DNA of 21,729 nucleotides from a virus, in the IMG/VR virus record IMGVR_UViG_3300035698_017564, positions 1 to 21,729 of that record. The stretch is one strand, 5' to 3'. Numbering within the stretch: position 1 is the first letter of the stretch; every line of letters starts with the position of its first letter. The notes beneath the pieces are model-generated. The model was not told where the DNA came from and did no database searches. It saw only the letters and a list, made by a program, of their open reading frames with translations. Below are positions 2,200 through 21,245 of the stretch, piece by piece. Made by a program: the position numbers and the translations under genes.

Positions 2200-2962
2200 A
2201 ACTCTCCTCTCCATCGATTACTTCAAGAGATGCTTCTAGATCTCTATTTGTAGACAATTCGACGAAGTCCACTAGGTGTACTTTAGCATCTTCAGGTATA
2301 GTCTCAGACTCCAAATAATACTCTGCTATACCAATGAGGAGATCCTGTTCCACTTCTAGCTGGTCTTCCCTCCCCTTACTCGCCTCCAACTCTTTTAACT
2401 TTTCAATGCTCTTAGTAATCAGTCTACCAAACGCCATGGAAGGAGTCTCGTAACCTTTTTCAATAACCTCTCCGTTTTCAGTGATCCGGTACGATAATCC
2501 GTCATCCGTATCAATACCATATACGTCGTTACCAATGTACAAGCTGGCTGGATAGTCCCCGGCAGGTATCATGTCCTGTCCAAGTCTAATCACAGTTCCC
2601 GTCTTCTCTTTTTCAGCTGGTATAAGATGGACAGTAATCACACTTTGGAATTTGTGGCGTCCCTGCCTATCATGAGAGACTTCGAAAGTGAGATAATCTT
2701 TAGAACCCAGAACTCGCTCAGCAAGTTCATTTATGATAGGCTCTAAATCAAGAGGCTCCGCTTCAACGTCTTGCATATTTTCTGTATCGTACCAAACAAT
2801 GGTATGAGTAGCACTACGCTGGTCTGAAGCTTCCCTACTTCTCTCTTCTTTAATGTACGCAACCGGGACTTCTAGACGAAACCTACCCTGCAACTCATCT
2901 AGAGGACCTAGAAGAGATTGAAAGGATTCTACATCTTCATTTGCGAATCGTATTAACGTCAT
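2192..2962 (-). CDS. Acidic hypothetical phage protein, 256 aa
   Basis: Not recognised. An acidic, soluble-looking protein without signal peptide or membrane segments. The middle (about residues 85-175) looks beta-rich, with segments such as HKFQSVITVHLIP and GDYPASLYIGNDVYGIDTDD. The C-terminal third is helical and Glu-rich (KSIEKLKELEASKGREDQLE). It follows a structured non-coding gap and overlaps the next gene by 8 bases, so the two are probably translationally coupled. The ATG at 2962 has only a weak ribosome site (GGAATT about five bases upstream). Position between the transglycosylase and the membrane coiled-coil protein hints at virion or lysis work, but nothing in the sequence proves it. 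Confidence 0.75.
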   Translation of the reverse strand: MTLIRFANEDVESFQSLLGPLDELQGRFRLEVPVAYIKEERSREASDQRSATHTIVWYDTENMQDVEAEPLDLEPIINELAERVLGSKDYLTFEVSHDRQGRHKFQSVITVHLIPAEKEKTGTVIRLGQDMIPAGDYPASLYIGNDVYGIDTDDGLSYRITENGEVIEKGYETPSMAFGRLITKSIEKLKELEASKGREDQLEVEQDLLIGIAEYYLESETIPEDAKVHLVDFVELSTNRDLEASLEVIDGEESYE

Positions 2963-2998
2963 TGAATTCCATCAGTCGATTAGTTGTAAAAACAAAGT

Positions 2999-3090
2999 GG
3001 GTGTAGGTTCCCAATTAATGGGGACAACAAAGAAAGGTTTGGTTGATTAGAAACCTATAACAATCAGACCAACCTAGGGAACCTACACCC
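2999..3090. repeat. 14-bp perfect inverted repeat with structured 64-base loop
   Basis: The arms GGGTGTAGGTTCCC (2999-3012) and GGGAACCTACACCC (3077-3090) are exact reverse complements. Inside, on the transcribed minus strand, AGGTT...TGATT can pair with AATCA...AACCT around internal mismatches, so the RNA could form a long two-part hairpin. It lies in the 219-base non-coding gap between the transglycosylase stop and the next start, and no gene is evident there. After the 3' arm the minus strand reads ACTTTGTTTTTAC, a broken U-run, so it could act as a weak terminator. A structured leader, processing site or small RNA are alternatives. The 14-bp fully paired stem does not fit a tRNA. Confidence 0.75.
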
Positions 3091-3146
3091 ATCTAAATCG
3101 GTAACTTTCAAATACAACTCTCCTGTTAATAGAAGAGAGTGTCTCT

Positions 3147-3175
3147 ATTATAGAGTAACCAAAGTATTTAGAGAA
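3147..3175 (-). promoter_or_regulatory. Candidate sigma-70-type promoter
   Basis: The minus strand carries a perfect -10 hexamer TATAAT (3152-3147) inside the palindrome CTCTATAATAGAG. Seventeen bases upstream is TTCTCT, only a half match to a -35 box. Transcription would begin near 3140 and give the gene starting at 2962 a leader of about 180 bases containing the 14-bp inverted repeat. A purine-rich AGGAGAG (minus strand, near 3119-3125) lies in this leader and pairs with an upstream CTCTCT, but I see no convincing reading frame behind it. The weak -35 keeps confidence low. Confidence 0.4.
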
Positions 3176-3181
3176 TTGGAT

Positions 3182-4204
3182 TTACTTAGATGAGATAGGG
3201 GAAAGGACGGGCCGGATCGGTGCAGGCTTACGGTAGAATTTTGGGATTTTTGATACGCTGAAACACCTTCGACAACTCCACCTGGACTTGATTTGTCTAC
3301 GTGCTCCGTACTCGAAACAGGAGAGCTGCTTCCAGTAAGCTGCGCGAGAGACACACTTACGCCGAGACTTCTTACACAGATTGTACCGATTGGAGTAGTA
3401 ACTGGCGCTTTCTTTCGGGGACTTTCTGTAGGTGTGGCACGCGTAGCGACGTCGGCACTTATTACGAGTCAAATAGAAAGGTCCTTGATTATACCGATTC
3501 ATCACACACCTACGGAGTGGGTGATTCCACTTTCGATGCGACCATTTCTTACAGTACGTAACGTGTCTTGCCAGCTCCTGAGCCGACTTTAAGAAGGAGA
3601 GCTTGTAATCATTGGCTACTTTCCTACAGTACCGTTTCACATAGCTCCCAGGACCTCGAACGTGGTGCTGCGTGATACCACAATCCGCCCAACAAGTCCG
3701 GTGATTGTTCTTACAGCCTGAGTTGACCAGATAAAGTGGCCTGAAATCGCTCTCCATGCGTCCTACAGCGATAAGGAAGACAGCATCGACTCCAGTAGCC
3801 TTCTCAGCTGCAAAAGCCGCCTTGGCGATTCTGAGGCGCTTAGACTGAACACGAAGATTCTTTTTAAAACACCTATTCAATTTACGTGTACACCTCTTGA
3901 ATTTACCCACCTTAGGTAAATCTTTATACTTGTCACATTGAAACTTTGATTTGCATTCTGATCGAGATCCCCATAGACCACGGTCTTCAATGGCACGAAC
4001 CGACTTTACCAAGCTTTCAATTCTCTGAGCTTCAGTTAAAGCAGTCTTCGTTGCTACAAGGCCTTTGAAATGGTCCGTGACGGCTCGGGCTACCACTACT
4101 GAGGAAGAGACTCCTCCGGATGTTGGAACAGGGTTTTCTGCGAAAGCGTTAGGAATAAACAAAAATAAACTACAAACCGCTACAGAAATTAAAAAATACT
4201 TCAA
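3182..4204 (-). CDS. Secreted, cysteine-rich SLT-type lytic transglycosylase / endolysin
   Basis: Predicted peptidoglycan-cleaving enzyme of the lysozyme-like lytic transglycosylase fold. A Sec signal peptide covers residues 1-22 (basic MKY, hydrophobic core, cleavage after NAFA). The catalytic-domain motifs, in order, are: GVDAVFLIAVGRMESDF with probable catalytic Glu151; GITQ (176-179) in the place of the GLMQ motif; and RYNQGP (237-242) matching the YN-G motif that closes the active site. The mature protein is very basic and holds 17 cysteines (84, 90, 105, 112, 164, 171, 175, 193, 218, 233, 250, 256, 277, 284, 296, 311, 314), unusual for this fold, so it is probably disulfide-braced in the periplasm. 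The start is TTG at 4204 with GGAG eight bases upstream. It could serve lysis or, if virion-borne, cell-wall entry; a nearby membrane coiled-coil gene favours lysis. Confidence 0.8.
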   Translation of the reverse strand: MKYFLISVAVCSLFLFIPNAFAENPVPTSGGVSSSVVVARAVTDHFKGLVATKTALTEAQRIESLVKSVRAIEDRGLWGSRSECKSKFQCDKYKDLPKVGKFKRCTRKLNRCFKKNLRVQSKRLRIAKAAFAAEKATGVDAVFLIAVGRMESDFRPLYLVNSGCKNNHRTCWADCGITQHHVRGPGSYVKRYCRKVANDYKLSFLKSAQELARHVTYCKKWSHRKWNHPLRRCVMNRYNQGPFYLTRNKCRRRYACHTYRKSPKESASYYSNRYNLCKKSRRKCVSRAAYWKQLSCFEYGARRQIKSRWSCRRCFSVSKIPKFYRKPAPIRPVLSPISSK

Positions 4205-11941: not shown

Positions 11942-13582
11942 TTATAGGTCTTCTCTAACTCTCAACTGTTTAAACTTATTGAATCGTCCTTTAGCTACTT
12001 GTTTGGGGTCTACTTGATATACAAAATCTACTACTGTTCCGACGAGTTCTTCTCGTCTTTGCCAGAAGTCCATACGTTGGTCCATTCCAGCTTTTTCTTT
12101 TAATCCGCTTCCGACTCGTAATTCCTTACCGTCATCTAGTTTTACAACAAAATACCCGACTCGTTCACTATATCGATACGAAACCGTATTTTTATCTAGA
12201 TGACGAGAAATACGACGGTCCATAGAATCATTTACCTCCGACTTTAATTGAGTAACTAATTCTACCGGGGCTTCTGTTTGAAGATGGAGATAATACCCAT
12301 CGTCCTCAACTTCTCCTCCTCGCTCATCCGACCACTGCCGAAATACACTTTTGACTTTCTTAATGTTTGAAGATGTCGCTTTGTCATTTTTATCTTTTCC
12401 AGAGACAACCTCCAAAATAATACCTGATTCTTCTTTTGTCGGTTTCAACTTTATAAAGTCTTTGGTCCTTTTACACTGCAAAAAGGATTTAGGGTTTTTA
12501 ATGACTACTCCTTCAAAGTCGGCGGATAGTTTTCTCTGGAGATCTTTCCACATCTCTTCTTCAGTGTGAATTACTCGGTGACCTACAATGTGTACTCCAG
12601 ATACAATCTTCGTGAATTTGTGAGTTCTCTTTTTTAAACCTGCAGCTTTCATAAGAACGTATTTACGCTCTTCAAGCTCCATCGCGAACTCACCGGCATT
12701 GAAGTACTCTAGAGGAGCCCAATCCCAAACTAGGACCAAGATGTTTTTTAAGAATTTAGATTCGTTAAAATTAACATGACTACGGATAATACTAGAGGTT
12801 TTATTCCAGCTTCCACTGCGATCCGTGAACTCCCCATCAATGAACAGATTTGTATTAGGACCAAACCCGGTATGAGGAATTAACTTCTTATGGAGTTCTA
12901 GCATTCGAGAAACAAAAAAATCACACGTCTCAATGTGCTTCCAACGTTTCCCTCCTCGTGTCAATACAGTGATTCTCTCTTCACGAGGGAATATAAAAAT
13001 AAGGGCTCTGTCGCCATCCAACTTAGCTTCTGAATACCACCCGTTTTCTCCAAAGTCAAGCAGAAAGGTTTTCCTTTTTACCAGATCTTTATAGCTTGTG
13101 GCGAGAGGGCATTTATTCTTATGGAAAATAATCTCTTCGTCATCCCCGAGTTGGGTTTCTTTTTGACCCCAAACGTTGCGAATAGTCTTCTCACCCACAC
13201 CAATTCTGAGATTGTGGTTAATTACGCGAGTGAACCATTTTTTCGGGACTGGATAGAGAGACTTTAAAAAGCCGTCTAATCGGGTGGAAGCCTTATTACC
13301 TGTAATCTGCCTGGTACTGAGCTGCTCAGTTATTTCCAGAAACTGACGATACGTCTTCGTGATTTGCTGTTTGGTCGTAATCTCTGCTATGGTAGCTTCC
13401 GAAGGTCTAACATAGTAGTTAGCTGTTCCAATAGCCATCATTACTAAAGTCTTAAAAACCTCGTTGGAGGCATTATCTCTCAGAAGCTTTTCTTTCTTCA
13501 ATCTACCTTCTGCGTTTTCGATTTCTTCCAGAGCGACAAAAGCCTCTCGGATAATATCTTTGGTAATCTCAGTATTTTCCAT
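11942..13582 (-). CDS. ATP-dependent DNA ligase
   Basis: Seals nicks in DNA with ATP through a lysine-AMP intermediate, during phage replication and repair. A 546-residue protein with the nucleotidyltransferase motifs in order: motif I K187-LDGDR, with Lys187 the expected nucleophile; motif III region FIDGEF (Glu251); motif IV EGVVIK (357-362); motif V FIKLKP (Lys378, Lys380). A helical N-terminal domain (1-170) precedes it, as in T4-type ligases. An OB-fold-like C-terminal domain follows, with an extra charged stretch (about 395-465) relative to the minimal layout; VGSGLKEKAG near 490 resembles the OB-fold segment of phage ligases. Only a weak ribosome site precedes ATG 13582, and a hairpin lies in the 93-base gap upstream. 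Confidence 0.92.
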   Translation of the reverse strand: MENTEITKDIIREAFVALEEIENAEGRLKKEKLLRDNASNEVFKTLVMMAIGTANYYVRPSEATIAEITTKQQITKTYRQFLEITEQLSTRQITGNKASTRLDGFLKSLYPVPKKWFTRVINHNLRIGVGEKTIRNVWGQKETQLGDDEEIIFHKNKCPLATSYKDLVKRKTFLLDFGENGWYSEAKLDGDRALIFIFPREERITVLTRGGKRWKHIETCDFFVSRMLELHKKLIPHTGFGPNTNLFIDGEFTDRSGSWNKTSSIIRSHVNFNESKFLKNILVLVWDWAPLEYFNAGEFAMELEERKYVLMKAAGLKKRTHKFTKIVSGVHIVGHRVIHTEEEMWKDLQRKLSADFEGVVIKNPKSFLQCKRTKDFIKLKPTKEESGIILEVVSGKDKNDKATSSNIKKVKSVFRQWSDERGGEVEDDGYYLHLQTEAPVELVTQLKSEVNDSMDRRISRHLDKNTVSYRYSERVGYFVVKLDDGKELRVGSGLKEKAGMDQRMDFWQRREELVGTVVDFVYQVDPKQVAKGRFNKFKQLRVREDL

Positions 13583-16066: not shown

Positions 16067-16852
16067 CTATTTCTTGAAAAGAGGTTTCATTAAACCCATT
16101 TTTCCATTTTCTTCTTCATCGTCCACCACTTCTAATGCGTACTTTAACCTTTGAGTAGCAATAGGCATGTACTCGTCTTCTTTTTCAAACCCTATAAATC
16201 TACGGTTGAGAGTTACTGCTGCAACACTAGTAGTACCAGAACCAAGATAAGGGTCAAGTACTATATCTCCGGGTCGAGAGCCTAGAGTAACTAGATAACT
16301 TAGAAGTTTGATAGGTTTTACCGATGGATGATGATTGGCACGGGGCACAGCACTGGACTTAGGTGTGGTCCGGCCCGGGTTGTCTTTGAACTCTCCCATC
16401 TGAGGCTTGGCTTTTTTAGGGAGGTCATCAAGTCCCACGTTCTTTTCCTTTTTAGCTGCTTTCGGGACGAGTAAGAAAGGAAATACTTTTTGTACTGAAG
16501 CAGGTAGATTTTGAATAGCCCAAGCATCGAGGTCGAAGTAGCGAGAGAAGGAACCGGAATCAACATATCCCAAATCAGGAGTACCGACATCAAGATTTCC
16601 TATATTACCAGACCCATAAACATCACCCTTTTGTGTACCTTTGGTTCTTCGCGCAATGCCACTGCCTGTTATTCCTGCTCCGCTCAATGCCCCGTCGTTC
16701 AATGGATCGGACACTTCCCTAATGTGCTTTCCCAATGCACCACTGGTCATAGACTTCAAATCTGATGTGTCTAAGCCAAGATACTGCAAGGCACCCCGCC
16801 CCTCTGGTGTAAGAACCACTTCCCCATTACTCGTTTTCTTGAAGTAACTCAT
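16067..16852 (-). CDS. DNA methyltransferase, C-terminal half (AdoMet-binding part)
   Basis: The downstream piece of a beta-class amino-methyltransferase. A 261-residue frame from ATG 16852, chosen because AGGAGAAAGG lies upstream. It contains SRYFDLDAWAIQNLP and SVQKVFPFLLVPKA, typical of the segment before the AdoMet site in phage enzymes. Then come NHHPSVKPIKLLSYLV (motif X) and DIVLDPYLGSGTTSVAA (motif I, the AdoMet-binding loop, at about 196-212), followed by NRRFIGFEKEDEYMPIATQR (motif II-III region). Motifs IV to VIII are absent here and are found in the gene at 17698-18798. Its first 26 bases lie inside the homing endonuclease frame. Alone it should bind AdoMet but lack the catalytic DPPY; it probably pairs with the N-terminal half. 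Its own start signal argues against a dead fragment. Confidence 0.85.
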   Translation of the reverse strand: MSYFKKTSNGEVVLTPEGRGALQYLGLDTSDLKSMTSGALGKHIREVSDPLNDGALSGAGITGSGIARRTKGTQKGDVYGSGNIGNLDVGTPDLGYVDSGSFSRYFDLDAWAIQNLPASVQKVFPFLLVPKAAKKEKNVGLDDLPKKAKPQMGEFKDNPGRTTPKSSAVPRANHHPSVKPIKLLSYLVTLGSRPGDIVLDPYLGSGTTSVAAVTLNRRFIGFEKEDEYMPIATQRLKYALEVVDDEEENGKMGLMKPLFKK

Positions 16853-17705
16853 TTGGCCTTTCTCCTGCATGTATCTCAGAACCCCATAGCCTAATCACTC
16901 GATACCCACGCTCTTCCAATTTTCTGTTTACCCATTTATCCTGAGCTGCTGTTCTAGGCTTCTTGTGCCAATAATCTCCATCTGCAAAAATGCAAATGTT
17001 TGGTTCTATGAAAAAATCAGGTCGACACACGTCTTTAATTACACGCTGCTTCTCATGCACTACCTCATTTTTGATCAGCCACGCCTCTAGGATAAGCTCA
17101 ATATCGGTATCGCATACTCTAACCATCGGTGGATCATTGATCATCGTGCGTGACCATGCACGCCCTCTGCACTTGCGAGAACAATACACAGGAGGTGGAT
17201 TCTTGCGCTTGCGCGTCGTCTCCTCTCCACATTCGGCACAATTAAATACAATTGGACCACCCTTCCAATTCGGGTTATCTGGCCCTGTTGGATATTCTCT
17301 GCCACGATTGATCGCCCGTGAAGCACATGATCTACTGCAAAACTTACCATTCCCGCGATTAGCAGTACTTCTATACACTTCAAACTTAGCACCACATTCA
17401 ACGCACACCATTCCGACACGCTTCTTTGGCTTATACGCAAATGCAGCCTTGATACCCTCGCTGATTTTTCGTTTTGTGTTTTCGCTTCGTGGTCGACCAT
17501 AAGACAGATCATCCCCTGCACTCTTGCTCATGCCCCTGTTCCATCCTCTTCCTTTTGCTAACTGCTTTTTTCCGTGCCCGTGTTTTTTGTACAACTCGCC
17601 TCGACACCCACGGCAACACACATGCTTTGACCTGGCTAAATCAGAAGGCCTTCTATACAAAGGCTTCTGACATACCTCACATTCAACATTCGGATTCCTA
17701 CTCAT
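16827..17705 (-). CDS. Vsr-like (EDxHD) homing endonuclease with zinc fingers and NUMOD3
   Basis: A site-specific DNA endonuclease of the mobile, free-standing type that copies its own gene into cognate empty sites. The 292 residues hold, in order: a zinc finger (CEVC, CCRGC, 9-34); a NUMOD3-like DNA-binding segment (YGRPRSENTKRKISEGIKAA, 69-88); two more zinc fingers (CVEC/CSRSC 101-127; CAEC/CSRKC 156-179); between them GPDNPNWKGG, common in homing endonucleases; and a C-terminal Vsr-type nuclease. Candidate catalytic residues are E203, D230 (CRPDFF), D242, H247 (DGDYWH) and D256 (QDKW), matching the EDxHD family. It overlaps the upstream methyltransferase half by 8 bases and the downstream half by 26, leaving no room for a group I intron core. 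It thus seems to be inserted into and splitting the methyltransferase. Confidence 0.88.
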   Translation of the reverse strand: MSRNPNVECEVCQKPLYRRPSDLARSKHVCCRGCRGELYKKHGHGKKQLAKGRGWNRGMSKSAGDDLSYGRPRSENTKRKISEGIKAAFAYKPKKRVGMVCVECGAKFEVYRSTANRGNGKFCSRSCASRAINRGREYPTGPDNPNWKGGPIVFNCAECGEETTRKRKNPPPVYCSRKCRGRAWSRTMINDPPMVRVCDTDIELILEAWLIKNEVVHEKQRVIKDVCRPDFFIEPNICIFADGDYWHKKPRTAAQDKWVNRKLEERGYRVIRLWGSEIHAGERPNELLQENE

Positions 17706-18798
17706 CCTTAAGTGCCTCTTGCAGTCTAAACAATTCTTCCATATTAACGATTGGTTGTGTTTCTACCAATAAATTAGCGGGGAACCTCCCCTTCGGGTCT
17801 CCACCACGGGGACCTGGGGTCTGTGCAAAATTGGTGCTACCTTTGTCTGTGTAACGACGGTCTTGCGACGGTTCGTTTTCTCGGGATTTTCCACCCGAAG
17901 ATGGAATTCTCCCGTCATCTAACCAGGTACAGCCTTTTCTGTTATCCAATGCCTGGTCCAGATACGTCTTCTCGCTCAGTGGGCGCATTACTACCAAAAC
18001 GTGTTCTAGGCTCGGCTTCGGCTGGAATCCTGCGTAAGCTCCATCGAGGTAGACAGCTTCCTCTGTGACTGGAGCTGTAGCGTCTGGCTGGTCCTGTACT
18101 ATCCCGAACTTTGTCTGTCGCTTCTCTTTGTACCTAGCTCCGTCGTAGCCACCATCTTTTTGATTCGGGTTAGAACTAGTACCTACCACGGGACGTTTCG
18201 CTCCGGCTCGTTTATCTGCTGCCTTTGATAAGTTGTGAGCCTTCGGCATACGAGCGGCTACTACCCAGTACAAACTGGTGAACCCTGTCACGAACCCAGC
18301 ATCATCCAGGGTCACTATCATACGAGCTAAGCAGTCCTGTCTGGGCGTACACAGTACGAACCCGAAAGCTCCGGGCTTCATCACTCTTAAGCACTCTTCC
18401 CACACCTCTACAGGAGGTACGGCCCGATCCCATTTTTTACCCATAAATCCCGACGATCCAGAACCCCCACCCGGTTTCTTAGGGTTTACAGAAGTAAGAC
18501 CGTAAGGCGGATCTGTCACCATCACGTCTATGTAGTTATCTGGTAACTCCTTCAATCTATCTAAGCAATCCCCCTGAACGACTGTGTTAACGTCTGGCGG
18601 GAGTTCTCCTTTACGAATAGCTACAGGACCATGTTCCTTTTTCAGCAACCTCAGGAGTCGTTTGGCTTCCTTCTTAGAAGTGCTAGCTCTGTAATACCCT
18701 AGCTTCTCCGGTATACCCAATACATTGCTCAGATCGTCAGGACAAGCCACAGCGATCTGGAATTTCCCTTTTTTCTTTTTGTACCAAAATTCAGTCAT
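17698..18798 (-). CDS. DNA methyltransferase, N-terminal half (catalytic DPPY part)
   Basis: The upstream piece of an N6-adenine or N4-cytosine DNA methyltransferase. A 366-residue protein. An N-terminal extension (1-70) is followed by the core strand VVQGDCLDRLKELP and catalytic motif IV TDPPYGL (DPPYG at 96-100). Next come GFMGKKWD, VWEECLRVMKPGAFGFVLCT (motif V-VI region) and the variable segment likely to read the target site, ending near KGRFPANLLVE. The chain stops at 17698, before motifs X and I, which lie in the gene at 16067-16852. The order IV...X-I places the enzyme in the beta class. The break lies after the target-recognition region, between catalytic and AdoMet-binding halves. 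Target sequence cannot be read from the protein; self-protection or anti-restriction are likely roles. Confidence 0.88.
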   Translation of the reverse strand: MTEFWYKKKKGKFQIAVACPDDLSNVLGIPEKLGYYRASTSKKEAKRLLRLLKKEHGPVAIRKGELPPDVNTVVQGDCLDRLKELPDNYIDVMVTDPPYGLTSVNPKKPGGGSGSSGFMGKKWDRAVPPVEVWEECLRVMKPGAFGFVLCTPRQDCLARMIVTLDDAGFVTGFTSLYWVVAARMPKAHNLSKAADKRAGAKRPVVGTSSNPNQKDGGYDGARYKEKRQTKFGIVQDQPDATAPVTEEAVYLDGAYAGFQPKPSLEHVLVVMRPLSEKTYLDQALDNRKGCTWLDDGRIPSSGGKSRENEPSQDRRYTDKGSTNFAQTPGPRGGDPKGRFPANLLVETQPIVNMEELFRLQEALKDE

Positions 18799-18800
18799 GA

Positions 18801-21245
18801 CTAGGACTTCAACTCGTCTTCGTATCGTCTAGACATCGTTACGTACCTAGACGGTGGGGTTTCTTGGTAGAGCTTAGATTCGTTGTTCTCTCTAATAGCC
18901 CACCATACCTGATCCCAAGCTTCATGTTCTACAACCTCGGTGAGATGGCTCACAACAAAAATGGAACTGAATTGACTTTTCAGAACCTGGAGAACCTTCA
19001 ACAAGGCTAACTTCCCCTGAGGGTCAAGATGACTAAAAGGCTCATCTAAGATCAAAATGTTCCCGGAACGTCCCGTGTAAATTTCTTTTAAGTCTCTCAA
19101 TCCAAACACAAAGGCTAACCCTGCTTTGTGACTCTCACCACCAGAGATCGCCCTGCTACTAGTCCCAGCATCTATCCCTTTTCGAGATAATTGAAATCGA
19201 ATAGCGTTATCAGTCGGCTCCAATTCCAAGTTAACCTGTTGATTCGGCCAAAGAATGTCCGAATACAGAGGAACAGTTTTCTCCGCTGCTTCCTGCATAA
19301 TAGCATGTAGCCGGTCGTGCTTCAAACCTTTTTGTCCAAAAGCAATTTTTAAAGCCTTGTAGCAGTCTTGCTTATCCAGGATGTCCTTGGTCTTCTTCAA
19401 TTCCGTCTCTAGCTTAACTTTTCTCTTCCTGGCCCCAGACACCTGGTTCATGTTGGTCCGAGCCGTGGTGGACTTCTCAGACAGGTCTGAGATAGAATTA
19501 GTCAACTGCGTCAACAGCTTCTCTAATTTACGCATTTCTCGAAGGACGGACTTCCTGGACACCTTCTTCAGTTTCTTCACTCTCGTAAGTCTGTCGTTAA
19601 TACTCTTAGCAGCTTCTAACTTATTTTCCAGCTTTTCTACGAGTAACTTCTGTTTCCCAATTGTCTGGCGTAATTCCTTAGCTCCAGCTTCCGGCATCGC
19701 CTTCAATTGTTTCCGTATAAGTCCTCTTCGCTGCTCACCCTCTAACGTCTCCGTCAAAACCCGCTCTCTCAGCGTCAAAGTAGAGATCTCGATTCGAATG
19801 TCTTTTACTCTTCGTTTCGTTTCGATTTTCTTGAGGCGTTCCTTCAAAGCAACTACCTTTTCGAGAAGAACAACATCCTTTTCTAATCGATGTACTGATA
19901 CGTTCACTTCCTTTAACTCTAAACGATTTTTCTCTAATTCCTCTTCCAACTCGGTAATCTCAGTTGTACCAAGACTAAACGACCTATGACAGGTAGGACA
20001 AACATCTTTATCAAGCTGAGTTTTTACTGCTCTAATAGACGCAGACAAATCAGATTTTAACTCTGTTAAACGATCTAATTCCTCCCTCGAAGCGGTATCT
20101 TCTAAATCGTCCGGGACATTCAATCTCTGAATGTCCTGAAGAATCTCAAGACGAGACTCTGCTTGAGGTAGTTCACCGTATTGAAGGTCACTCAATCGAC
20201 TCTTTGTTTCAACCAATTCGAGATTAACTTCCTCAACGTCTACCTCTTCCGTTCCCAATTTCTTTAGCTGCTTCTCTAAAATATCTTTTTGGTCTAGCAG
20301 GCGTAAAGAACTCTTAGCATCTACGTATTCGGTTTGAGCCGTCGTAAGCTCCTCCTTGATACGGGAAATATACTTCTTACTACAATATTTGGCTGATTTT
20401 AAATCTGTATGAAGAGGAGGCGTATTATTCCAGACCTCTTTTAATTCTTTAAGAAAAGCTGCTCTCTGCTGTGACTCTTGAAGGTCACCTTCCATCTCCC
20501 TTAATTCTCGGACGGTAGCATCCAGAGCAGTCTTTTCACCTTCAAGTTTTTCGTCACACTTTAAATACTCGCTTCTTAGCTCTTCTTCTGATGGATTATC
20601 ACTAAGAATACCTTTCAACTTTTCCATCTCAATCTCACTAGCTTCAATTTGCTGGAGATTTGTTTCGTTAAGCTTACTCCTAGTATCTACGTTCTTTGCA
20701 AGACGATCATATACATCCAGATCGAACATTTCAGTGATCTGGTGTTTCCGCTGGGCGTCTGTTCCGGATAAAAGGACATTCGTCATACGTTGTGCCATAT
20801 ACCTAAGATGGAAAAACGTATTAGTTGTTGTATTCAAAAACTCTTCGCCACGAATCCAGGTATGAGCGTGGGCACTATTTTTAGTGGGTAATATGTTCTG
20901 ACTAGTCTCCAAGTCTATTACCCTTGCGCCGTTTCCATACCTATGGTGATTCTGGTACAAGCTGATTCGGTAGTCCTTTCCATTCAAAGCAAACCAGACC
21001 GAGACCTCCAAATCTTTTCCTGCCTGATGATTAACCATATCAGAGAATTTGGTGTTCTTACCTCCCTTCCCCATTTGTGCAATAGCAAAAGCTTCAAATA
21101 GAGAAGACTTACCCGCACCCAAAAACCCACCGTCGTCTACGTTTAATCCTCGAACAAAGACCAAACCCTGATTATCTAGTTGGAAGTTGAATTCTCTATA
21201 AGAATATATATTCTTCCCAGAAATTCTTTTGTACTCAATATCCAT
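18801..21245 (-). CDS. Rad50/SbcC-family ATPase, phage recombination nuclease subunit
   Basis: ATPase subunit that clamps DNA and drives the partner nuclease (T4 gp46/Rad50/SbcC type) in end processing, recombination and replication start. An 814-residue protein. Residues 1-60 hold the N-terminal ATPase lobe with Walker A GFLGAGKSS (40-48). About 185-640 is long coiled coil interrupted by a zinc hook DVCPTCH (C416, C419) at the hairpin tip. The C-terminal lobe has the ABC signature ISGGESHKAG (700-709), Walker B ILILDEP (730-736, E735), D-loop SHLD and H-loop VVSH (H767). All motifs are intact. The nuclease partner (Mre11/SbcD/gp47) is not in the window; it may lie upstream beyond 21729. The stop is two bases before the methyltransferase start. 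Confidence 0.93.
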   Translation of the reverse strand: MDIEYKRISGKNIYSYREFNFQLDNQGLVFVRGLNVDDGGFLGAGKSSLFEAFAIAQMGKGGKNTKFSDMVNHQAGKDLEVSVWFALNGKDYRISLYQNHHRYGNGARVIDLETSQNILPTKNSAHAHTWIRGEEFLNTTTNTFFHLRYMAQRMTNVLLSGTDAQRKHQITEMFDLDVYDRLAKNVDTRSKLNETNLQQIEASEIEMEKLKGILSDNPSEEELRSEYLKCDEKLEGEKTALDATVRELREMEGDLQESQQRAAFLKELKEVWNNTPPLHTDLKSAKYCSKKYISRIKEELTTAQTEYVDAKSSLRLLDQKDILEKQLKKLGTEEVDVEEVNLELVETKSRLSDLQYGELPQAESRLEILQDIQRLNVPDDLEDTASREELDRLTELKSDLSASIRAVKTQLDKDVCPTCHRSFSLGTTEITELEEELEKNRLELKEVNVSVHRLEKDVVLLEKVVALKERLKKIETKRRVKDIRIEISTLTLRERVLTETLEGEQRRGLIRKQLKAMPEAGAKELRQTIGKQKLLVEKLENKLEAAKSINDRLTRVKKLKKVSRKSVLREMRKLEKLLTQLTNSISDLSEKSTTARTNMNQVSGARKRKVKLETELKKTKDILDKQDCYKALKIAFGQKGLKHDRLHAIMQEAAEKTVPLYSDILWPNQQVNLELEPTDNAIRFQLSRKGIDAGTSSRAISGGESHKAGLAFVFGLRDLKEIYTGRSGNILILDEPFSHLDPQGKLALLKVLQVLKSQFSSIFVVSHLTEVVEHEAWDQVWWAIRENNESKLYQETPPSRYVTMSRRYEDELKS

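Follow-up and report, generated by a model that had tools for sequence, protein, structure and literature searches.

A DNA methyltransferase gene in the 21,729-nucleotide stretch of viral DNA analyzed here (IMG/VR record IMGVR_UViG_3300035698_017564, positions 1 to 21,729; hereafter, the window) is divided into two separate genes with a homing endonuclease gene between them, and this arrangement probably arose when a free-standing EDxHD (Vsr-like) cassette, carrying its own tail and head modules, fractured the phage enzyme in the manner of genes-in-pieces. A first-pass annotation had described an N-half, a Vsr-like endonuclease, and a C-half as separate genes, with the endonuclease lying between the halves and overlapping both, and the window sequence confirmed all three open reading frames (ORFs) at their coordinates on the minus strand. 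More specifically, the methyltransferase N-half (17698..18798; 366 aa) carries motif IV (DPPYG) and the motifs that follow it, its conserved part ending at GRFPANLLV; the endonuclease gene (16827..17705; 292 aa) comes next; and the C-half (16067..16852; 261 aa) comprises the SRYFDLDAWA segment, motif X (HPSVKP), motif I (LDPYLGSGTT), and the following part. The stop of the N-half overlaps the start of the endonuclease gene by 8 nt, and the stop of the latter overlaps the start of the C-half by 26 nt. Although the C-half ORF is open up to 16870, we prefer the start at 16852, because an AGGAG ribosome-binding site (16862..16866, minus strand, inside the endonuclease gene at its 3' end) lies 14 nt upstream of it and because homologous C-pieces begin M-x-x-[YF] at this point. 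Each half thus has a full-length open frame, with a separate ribosome site for the C-half, as had been proposed.

Both halves bear additions that are absent from unsplit homologues, as expected of the element-derived tails of genes-in-pieces. After GRFPANLLV, the N-half continues with a 21-residue tail, ETQPIVNMEELFRLQEALKDE (17698..17763, minus strand), which has counterparts at loci L168 and L330, and the C-half begins with a 47-residue head, MSYFKKTSNGEVVLTPEGRGALQYLGLDTSDLKSMTSGALGKHIREV (16712..16852, minus strand), which is homologous to heads on the split C-pieces of the same two loci. With these 68 extra residues, the insert measures ~1.05 kb and exceeds the endonuclease ORF. Removal of the endonuclease ORF alone would thus not restore the join, as the 21 + 47 residues would remain. 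Compared with the other genes of the window, the endonuclease gene had no codon usage or GC content that would usefully mark it as foreign. At its N terminus (window 18600-18798), the N-half has ~70 additional residues (MTEFWYKKKKGKF...) not seen in unsplit homologues. Elsewhere, an ATP-dependent DNA ligase and an SMC/SbcC-like ATPase are encoded at 11942-13582 and 18801-21245, and a Pfam match is absent for most other ORFs of the window.

The host enzyme is probably a phage orphan beta-class DNA methyltransferase of the N6-adenine type. The C-half, with motif X 'HHPSVKPIKLLSYL' and motif I 'LDPYLGSGTT', matches Pfam N6_N4_Mtase (E = 1.2e-21), and the N-half, for which the Pfam score is weak, matches the phrog_67 DNA methyltransferase at 4e-19 and is 33-58% identical to unsplit phage homologues. 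The beta-class motif order (IV ... X-I) is present, with DPPYG in the N-half and HPSVKP plus LDPYLGSGTT in the C-half, and the best PDB matches of an AlphaFold (AF2) model of the unsplit L122 enzyme include CcrM, M.RsrI, and MboIIA. Motifs and modeled fold therefore both place the enzyme in the beta class, and methylation is its predicted activity. Among the IMG/VR loci fetched with either half, 137 hold both parts in one uninterrupted ORF; as the loci were sampled by conserved peptides, this number is not a census. Halves that were ancestrally separate in the absence of an endonuclease were not found among the relatives. When the halves were aligned to unsplit homologues, the N-half was complete to GRFPANLLV and the C-half resumed at SDpLNDG; unsplit enzymes read GRFPANLLVSDdvLNDG across the junction, and the split form reads GRFPANLLV^SDpLNDG, with no conserved core missing there. 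The alignment of the halves and the search for unsplit phage homologues, both suggested with the first-pass annotation, thus gave the outcomes that it had predicted. The division lies between a part with motifs IV-VIII and a part with motifs X and I-III, in agreement with the earlier reading that it separates the catalytic from the AdoMet-binding portion. In the L122 model, the position equivalent to the split site of the window (site A) falls in a stretch with pLDDT <50 between confident residues ~1-210 and 350-420. As the split is in a poorly ordered linker between the two parts, each part could form a folded unit, and the two could come together again as an active enzyme. A further locus with two overlapping ORFs (L100) seems to be a plain frameshift and was left out of the split count.

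Single-protein searches of IMG/VR with the N-half returned no near relatives, so that the window has no known close relative. That its lineage is represented by a single sequence, and that unsplit relatives are the norm, would suit a reading in which the insertion inactivated the methyltransferase and the two ORFs are a young, undecayed pseudogene. We consider this rather unlikely, because both halves are open over their full length and retain all motifs, because the C-half comes with a ribosome site and with a head akin to those of other split enzymes, and because separate halves in relatives outlast the loss of the endonuclease with dN/dS values well below 1 (see below).

The endonuclease consists of an N-terminal recognition region (17412..17705, minus strand), with zinc-finger-like cysteines and a NUMOD3-like segment, and a catalytic domain (residues 199-292; 16830..17111, minus strand). 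Family searches identified a Vsr/REase-like C-terminal domain. By sequence, I-Bth0305I was the sole PDB match with E <0.01, the match to Vsr (1cw0) being far weaker. An AlphaFold model of the endonuclease, for which the alignment was built without mycobacteriophage rows, had a mean pLDDT of 82; its catalytic domain superimposed on I-Bth0305I (3r3p) with Z 12.5 and rmsd 2.7 over 92 residues and on Vsr (1cw0) with Z 11.8, and Foldseek also found 3r3p with the model (E = 6.5e-5). Consistently, E203, D230, D242, H247, and D256 are present and invariant across 36-38 aligned relatives. By fold and active-site residues, the protein is an EDxHD homing endonuclease. It resembles I-Bth0305I in both respects, but I-Bth0305I is intron-encoded, whereas the window endonuclease is free-standing and differs in its N-terminal recognition region. 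Group I introns are known to harbor EDxHD endonucleases, I-Bth0305I among them (PMC3943268), and the ORF could accordingly be imagined to span a self-splicing intron, with one methyltransferase being made after RNA splicing. We rejected this idea as very improbable: Rfam yielded no intron, even with the threshold raised to E 10, the overlap of the endonuclease ORF with both flanking ORFs leaves little room for a ribozyme core, and at the protein level the tails, starts, and heads are conserved in both L168 and L330.

Searching with a profile built on the recognition region of the endonuclease, we detected two more insertions at the same residue as in the window, namely, in L330 and L168. The layout of L330 is that of the window (tail, EDxHD endonuclease, and head). 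In L168 (3148-6255), as well as in L169, a separate contig that is 99.96% identical to it, the methyltransferase is in three pieces that jointly rebuild the whole enzyme. The first insertion, between KPL and KTfvDQAL, contains an EDxHD endonuclease, and the second, at site A, contains a nuclease with an HNH domain (Pfam HNH, 5e-9); the N-terminal region of this nuclease shares 52% identity with that of the window endonuclease. Across the three site-A endonucleases (window, L330, and L168), the recognition domains share 49-54% identity, and comparison of L168 with the window thus reveals a related recognition region at one site combined with two different nuclease domains. Such a same-site distribution in three lineages would fit putative site-specific cleavage of the uninvaded target and homing. 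Locus L096 (2933-4654) encodes an unsplit sister of the window enzyme with an in-frame insert of ~90 aa at the first split position of L168; this insert weakly resembles the head of L168 (p = 0.004, from one of four comparisons).

Splits recur across the family. Endonuclease relatives were fetched independently of methyltransferases, and the endonuclease profile alone led to endonucleases between methyltransferase pieces at L168, L211, L233/L236, L274, and L281, and to a relative near a divided methyltransferase at L273. The methyltransferase family has at least three split positions, and the associated nuclease is a sense EDxHD enzyme, an antisense EDxHD enzyme (L211 and mycobacteriophages), an HNH enzyme (L046 and L168), or none (L024 and L113). 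In a tree of the C-terminal core, the split enzymes are scattered, and supported branches force at least four changes. Such scatter suggests that the site-A element has moved horizontally; a single clade of window, L330, and L168 was not rejected (AU p = 0.11), so that we do not regard a separate invasion of the window lineage as proven.

The range of nucleases found at the splits also bears on the notion that the methyltransferase naturally has two subunits and that the endonuclease is its cognate partner in restriction or in Vsr-type repair. A Vsr fold beside a methyltransferase would fit such a partnership, and the two-chain cytosine-5 enzymes M.AquI and M.EcoHK31I provide precedents (PMC3404938). 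We nonetheless rejected it as highly improbable, since the endonuclease is on the opposite strand at another split site and is replaced by an HNH enzyme at the same one, since the 137 relatives are single-chain, and since the sequence match to Vsr is much weaker than that to I-Bth0305I.

Inteins had to be weighed as well. Vsr-like (EDxHD) endonucleases are reported to have been described by Dassa et al. in 2009 in fractured phage genes with split inteins. The likeness to the window is that the same endonuclease family breaks a phage enzyme gene, and an intein C-part does lie beside an EDxHD endonuclease in L024. If the window were a fractured gene of this kind, its halves would be rejoined by protein trans-splicing; however, the 21-aa tail and 47-aa head are far too short and without intein motifs, the head has no terminal HN|C/S/T junction, and no intein family match was obtained. 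We therefore discarded this explanation, to which we attach next to no probability, and take the halves of the window, which lacks a split intein, to stay separate chains.

Several other loci showed unusual arrangements. At L024 (2470-3991), an EDxHD-type endonuclease ORF is followed by the C-terminal part of an intein, which ends YSHN|S; this contig also holds a methyltransferase that is split without an endonuclease. L113 (2071-4447) has a tandem pair of C-pieces of the same split type, one of them beside its N-piece, with no endonuclease between the pieces. The C-pieces of L233 (4611-4961) and L281 (4557-4904) contain an in-frame TAG plus one residue (HPT-stop-A/T-VKP), where mycobacteriophage C-pieces have PPNAVKP. 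In L015 (1985-4102), a phage structural gene has an intein-like insertion that houses an antisense EDxHD endonuclease gene, and the frame of the structural gene is open across the insertion.

The persistence of the split form was apparent in mycobacteriophages, in which 17 records have a full endonuclease relative, antisense, between the methyltransferase halves, and ~65 have only a C-terminal endonuclease remnant. All four remnant genomes inspected (Brusacoram, Jebeks, Shipwreck, and Renaud18) have separate N and C genes. Jebeks (L334, 2498-2499) corresponds to Malithi (L002) minus 705 bp in the endonuclease (2864-3568), with both halves kept; in Jebeks and Shipwreck alike, the 705-bp deletion took most of the endonuclease and left the halves. 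As Jebeks retains 45 bp of the endonuclease outside the N-half, the endonuclease was lost rather than never present, and separate halves that lack an endonuclease in mycobacteriophages bear the scar of its deletion. The N-half is the same protein in Malithi, Jebeks, and Shipwreck. For the separate C-half, dN/dS was 0.07-0.30 in most of the informative comparisons, which indicates purifying selection, and for N-halves it was 0.23-0.54. These comparative data support a functional two-chain form in mycobacteriophage relatives, at another split site than that of the window. They likewise favor the earlier proposal that division did not destroy the enzyme, the evidence being evolutionary and coming from relatives, in which both halves are retained and purifying selection acts. 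The annotated sense genes over the endonuclease (gp54 in Malithi and gp58 in Fishburne) are probably antisense to the real gene. In KilKor (L005, 3578-5758), the methyltransferase N-half also has an intein-like insertion, placing two kinds of mobile element in one gene.

Pairwise shuffles indicated that the heads of the window, L330, and L168 (both sites) are related. Similarity was strongest (p <1/2000) for the window head versus the first-site head of L168 and for the L330 head versus both L168 heads; the two L168 heads matched each other at p = 0.0004, and the window head matched the L330 head (p = 0.012) and the same-site head of L168 (p = 0.064) weakly. A second head type is common to L024 (split at site A with no intervening endonuclease) and to L233, L274, and L281 (site B; split before HPTVKP), with p = 0.0002-0.009. 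Tail similarity was clear for L330 versus L168 and weak for the window (p = 0.02-0.37). A hidden Markov model (HMM) of the four heads gave no other significant match when run against the six reading frames of every fetched locus, those with unsplit methyltransferases among them; a search of the phage collection for head modules, at E up to 10, gave chance-level matches only, and an IMG/VR scan yielded no further copies beyond those of L168 itself. The occurrence of heads of one type at different split sites fits heads that are borne by the element. Given that the segments are short and the shuffles simple, we regard the modules as a supported hypothesis rather than a demonstrated family.

Taken as a fracture by a free-standing cassette, the locus would have arisen by insertion into the codons of the conserved GRFPANLLV|SD motif of a beta-class methyltransferase, turning one gene into a translationally coupled operon of three (N-half, endonuclease, and C-half). 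The 5' end of the cassette would give the upstream half a short C-terminal tail and a stop codon, and its 3' end would give the downstream half a ribosome site, a start codon, and a head of ~45 residues. The endonuclease would cut uninvaded alleles at the conserved site, and the cassette would be copied in by recombination; tail and head plausibly aid docking of the halves. A bolder version, which we put forward tentatively and hold to be possible rather than probable, is a modular "split-and-dock" cassette in which a recognition domain picks the site, the nuclease (EDxHD or HNH) is swappable, the tail and head terminate, restart, and re-dock the halves, and the modules move between split sites.

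In its structure, the locus belongs with genes-in-pieces, with assembly into an active enzyme being putative. The closest parallel is nrdA-a/mobE/nrdA-b of phage Aeh1, in which a free-standing homing endonuclease splits an essential ribonucleotide reductase into two chains, the divided enzyme being reported as fully active (PMC2988022); the title of Crona 2011 (PMC3267527) ascribes assembly of this reductase to mobile-element-derived interaction domains. The window likewise has a phage enzyme parted into two chains by a free-standing homing endonuclease, but it differs from Aeh1 in that the host enzyme is a DNA methyltransferase, the nuclease is EDxHD instead of HNH, the family has three or more split positions, and activity of the two-chain form is a prediction. 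Two-chain methyltransferases have been described in the cytosine-5 class: M.AquI consists of two polypeptides split in the variable region, and fragments of M.SssI complement best if the break separates motif VIII from the target recognition domain (PMC3404938), a place similar to that of the split in the window. M.AquI and M.EcoHK31I resemble the window enzyme in having two chains, but are of the cytosine-5 class and involve no homing endonuclease. In related actinophage methylases (the PopTart_63 family; Gosselin et al. 2023, PMC9957025), conserved sites host in-frame inteins, a LAGLIDADG domain, and the ShiLan domain, so that these enzymes, too, are invaded by mobile elements at conserved sites. 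Our literature search covered open papers, and in the passages of PMC9957025 consulted we found no description of split halves or of a Vsr-like endonuclease. The recurrence of head modules at different split sites and the swapping of nuclease domains are the novel aspects of our findings.

Homing-endonuclease genes-in-pieces have been described in a few phage enzymes, namely, ribonucleotide reductase, topoisomerase, and DNA polymerase (PMC2988022), to which our analysis adds a family of DNA methyltransferases that have been broken at several sites, with two or more types of nuclease involved. Cultured mycobacteriophages provide natural before/after pairs, i.e., Malithi with the endonuclease and Jebeks and Shipwreck without it. 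The shared head modules make it possible to test by what means a selfish insertion preserves the enzyme it invades, and the same modules are natural starting points for split methyltransferase tools. If the split-and-dock proposal is true, such an element could divide its host enzyme yet leave it alive, and do so at two places within a single gene, as in L168.
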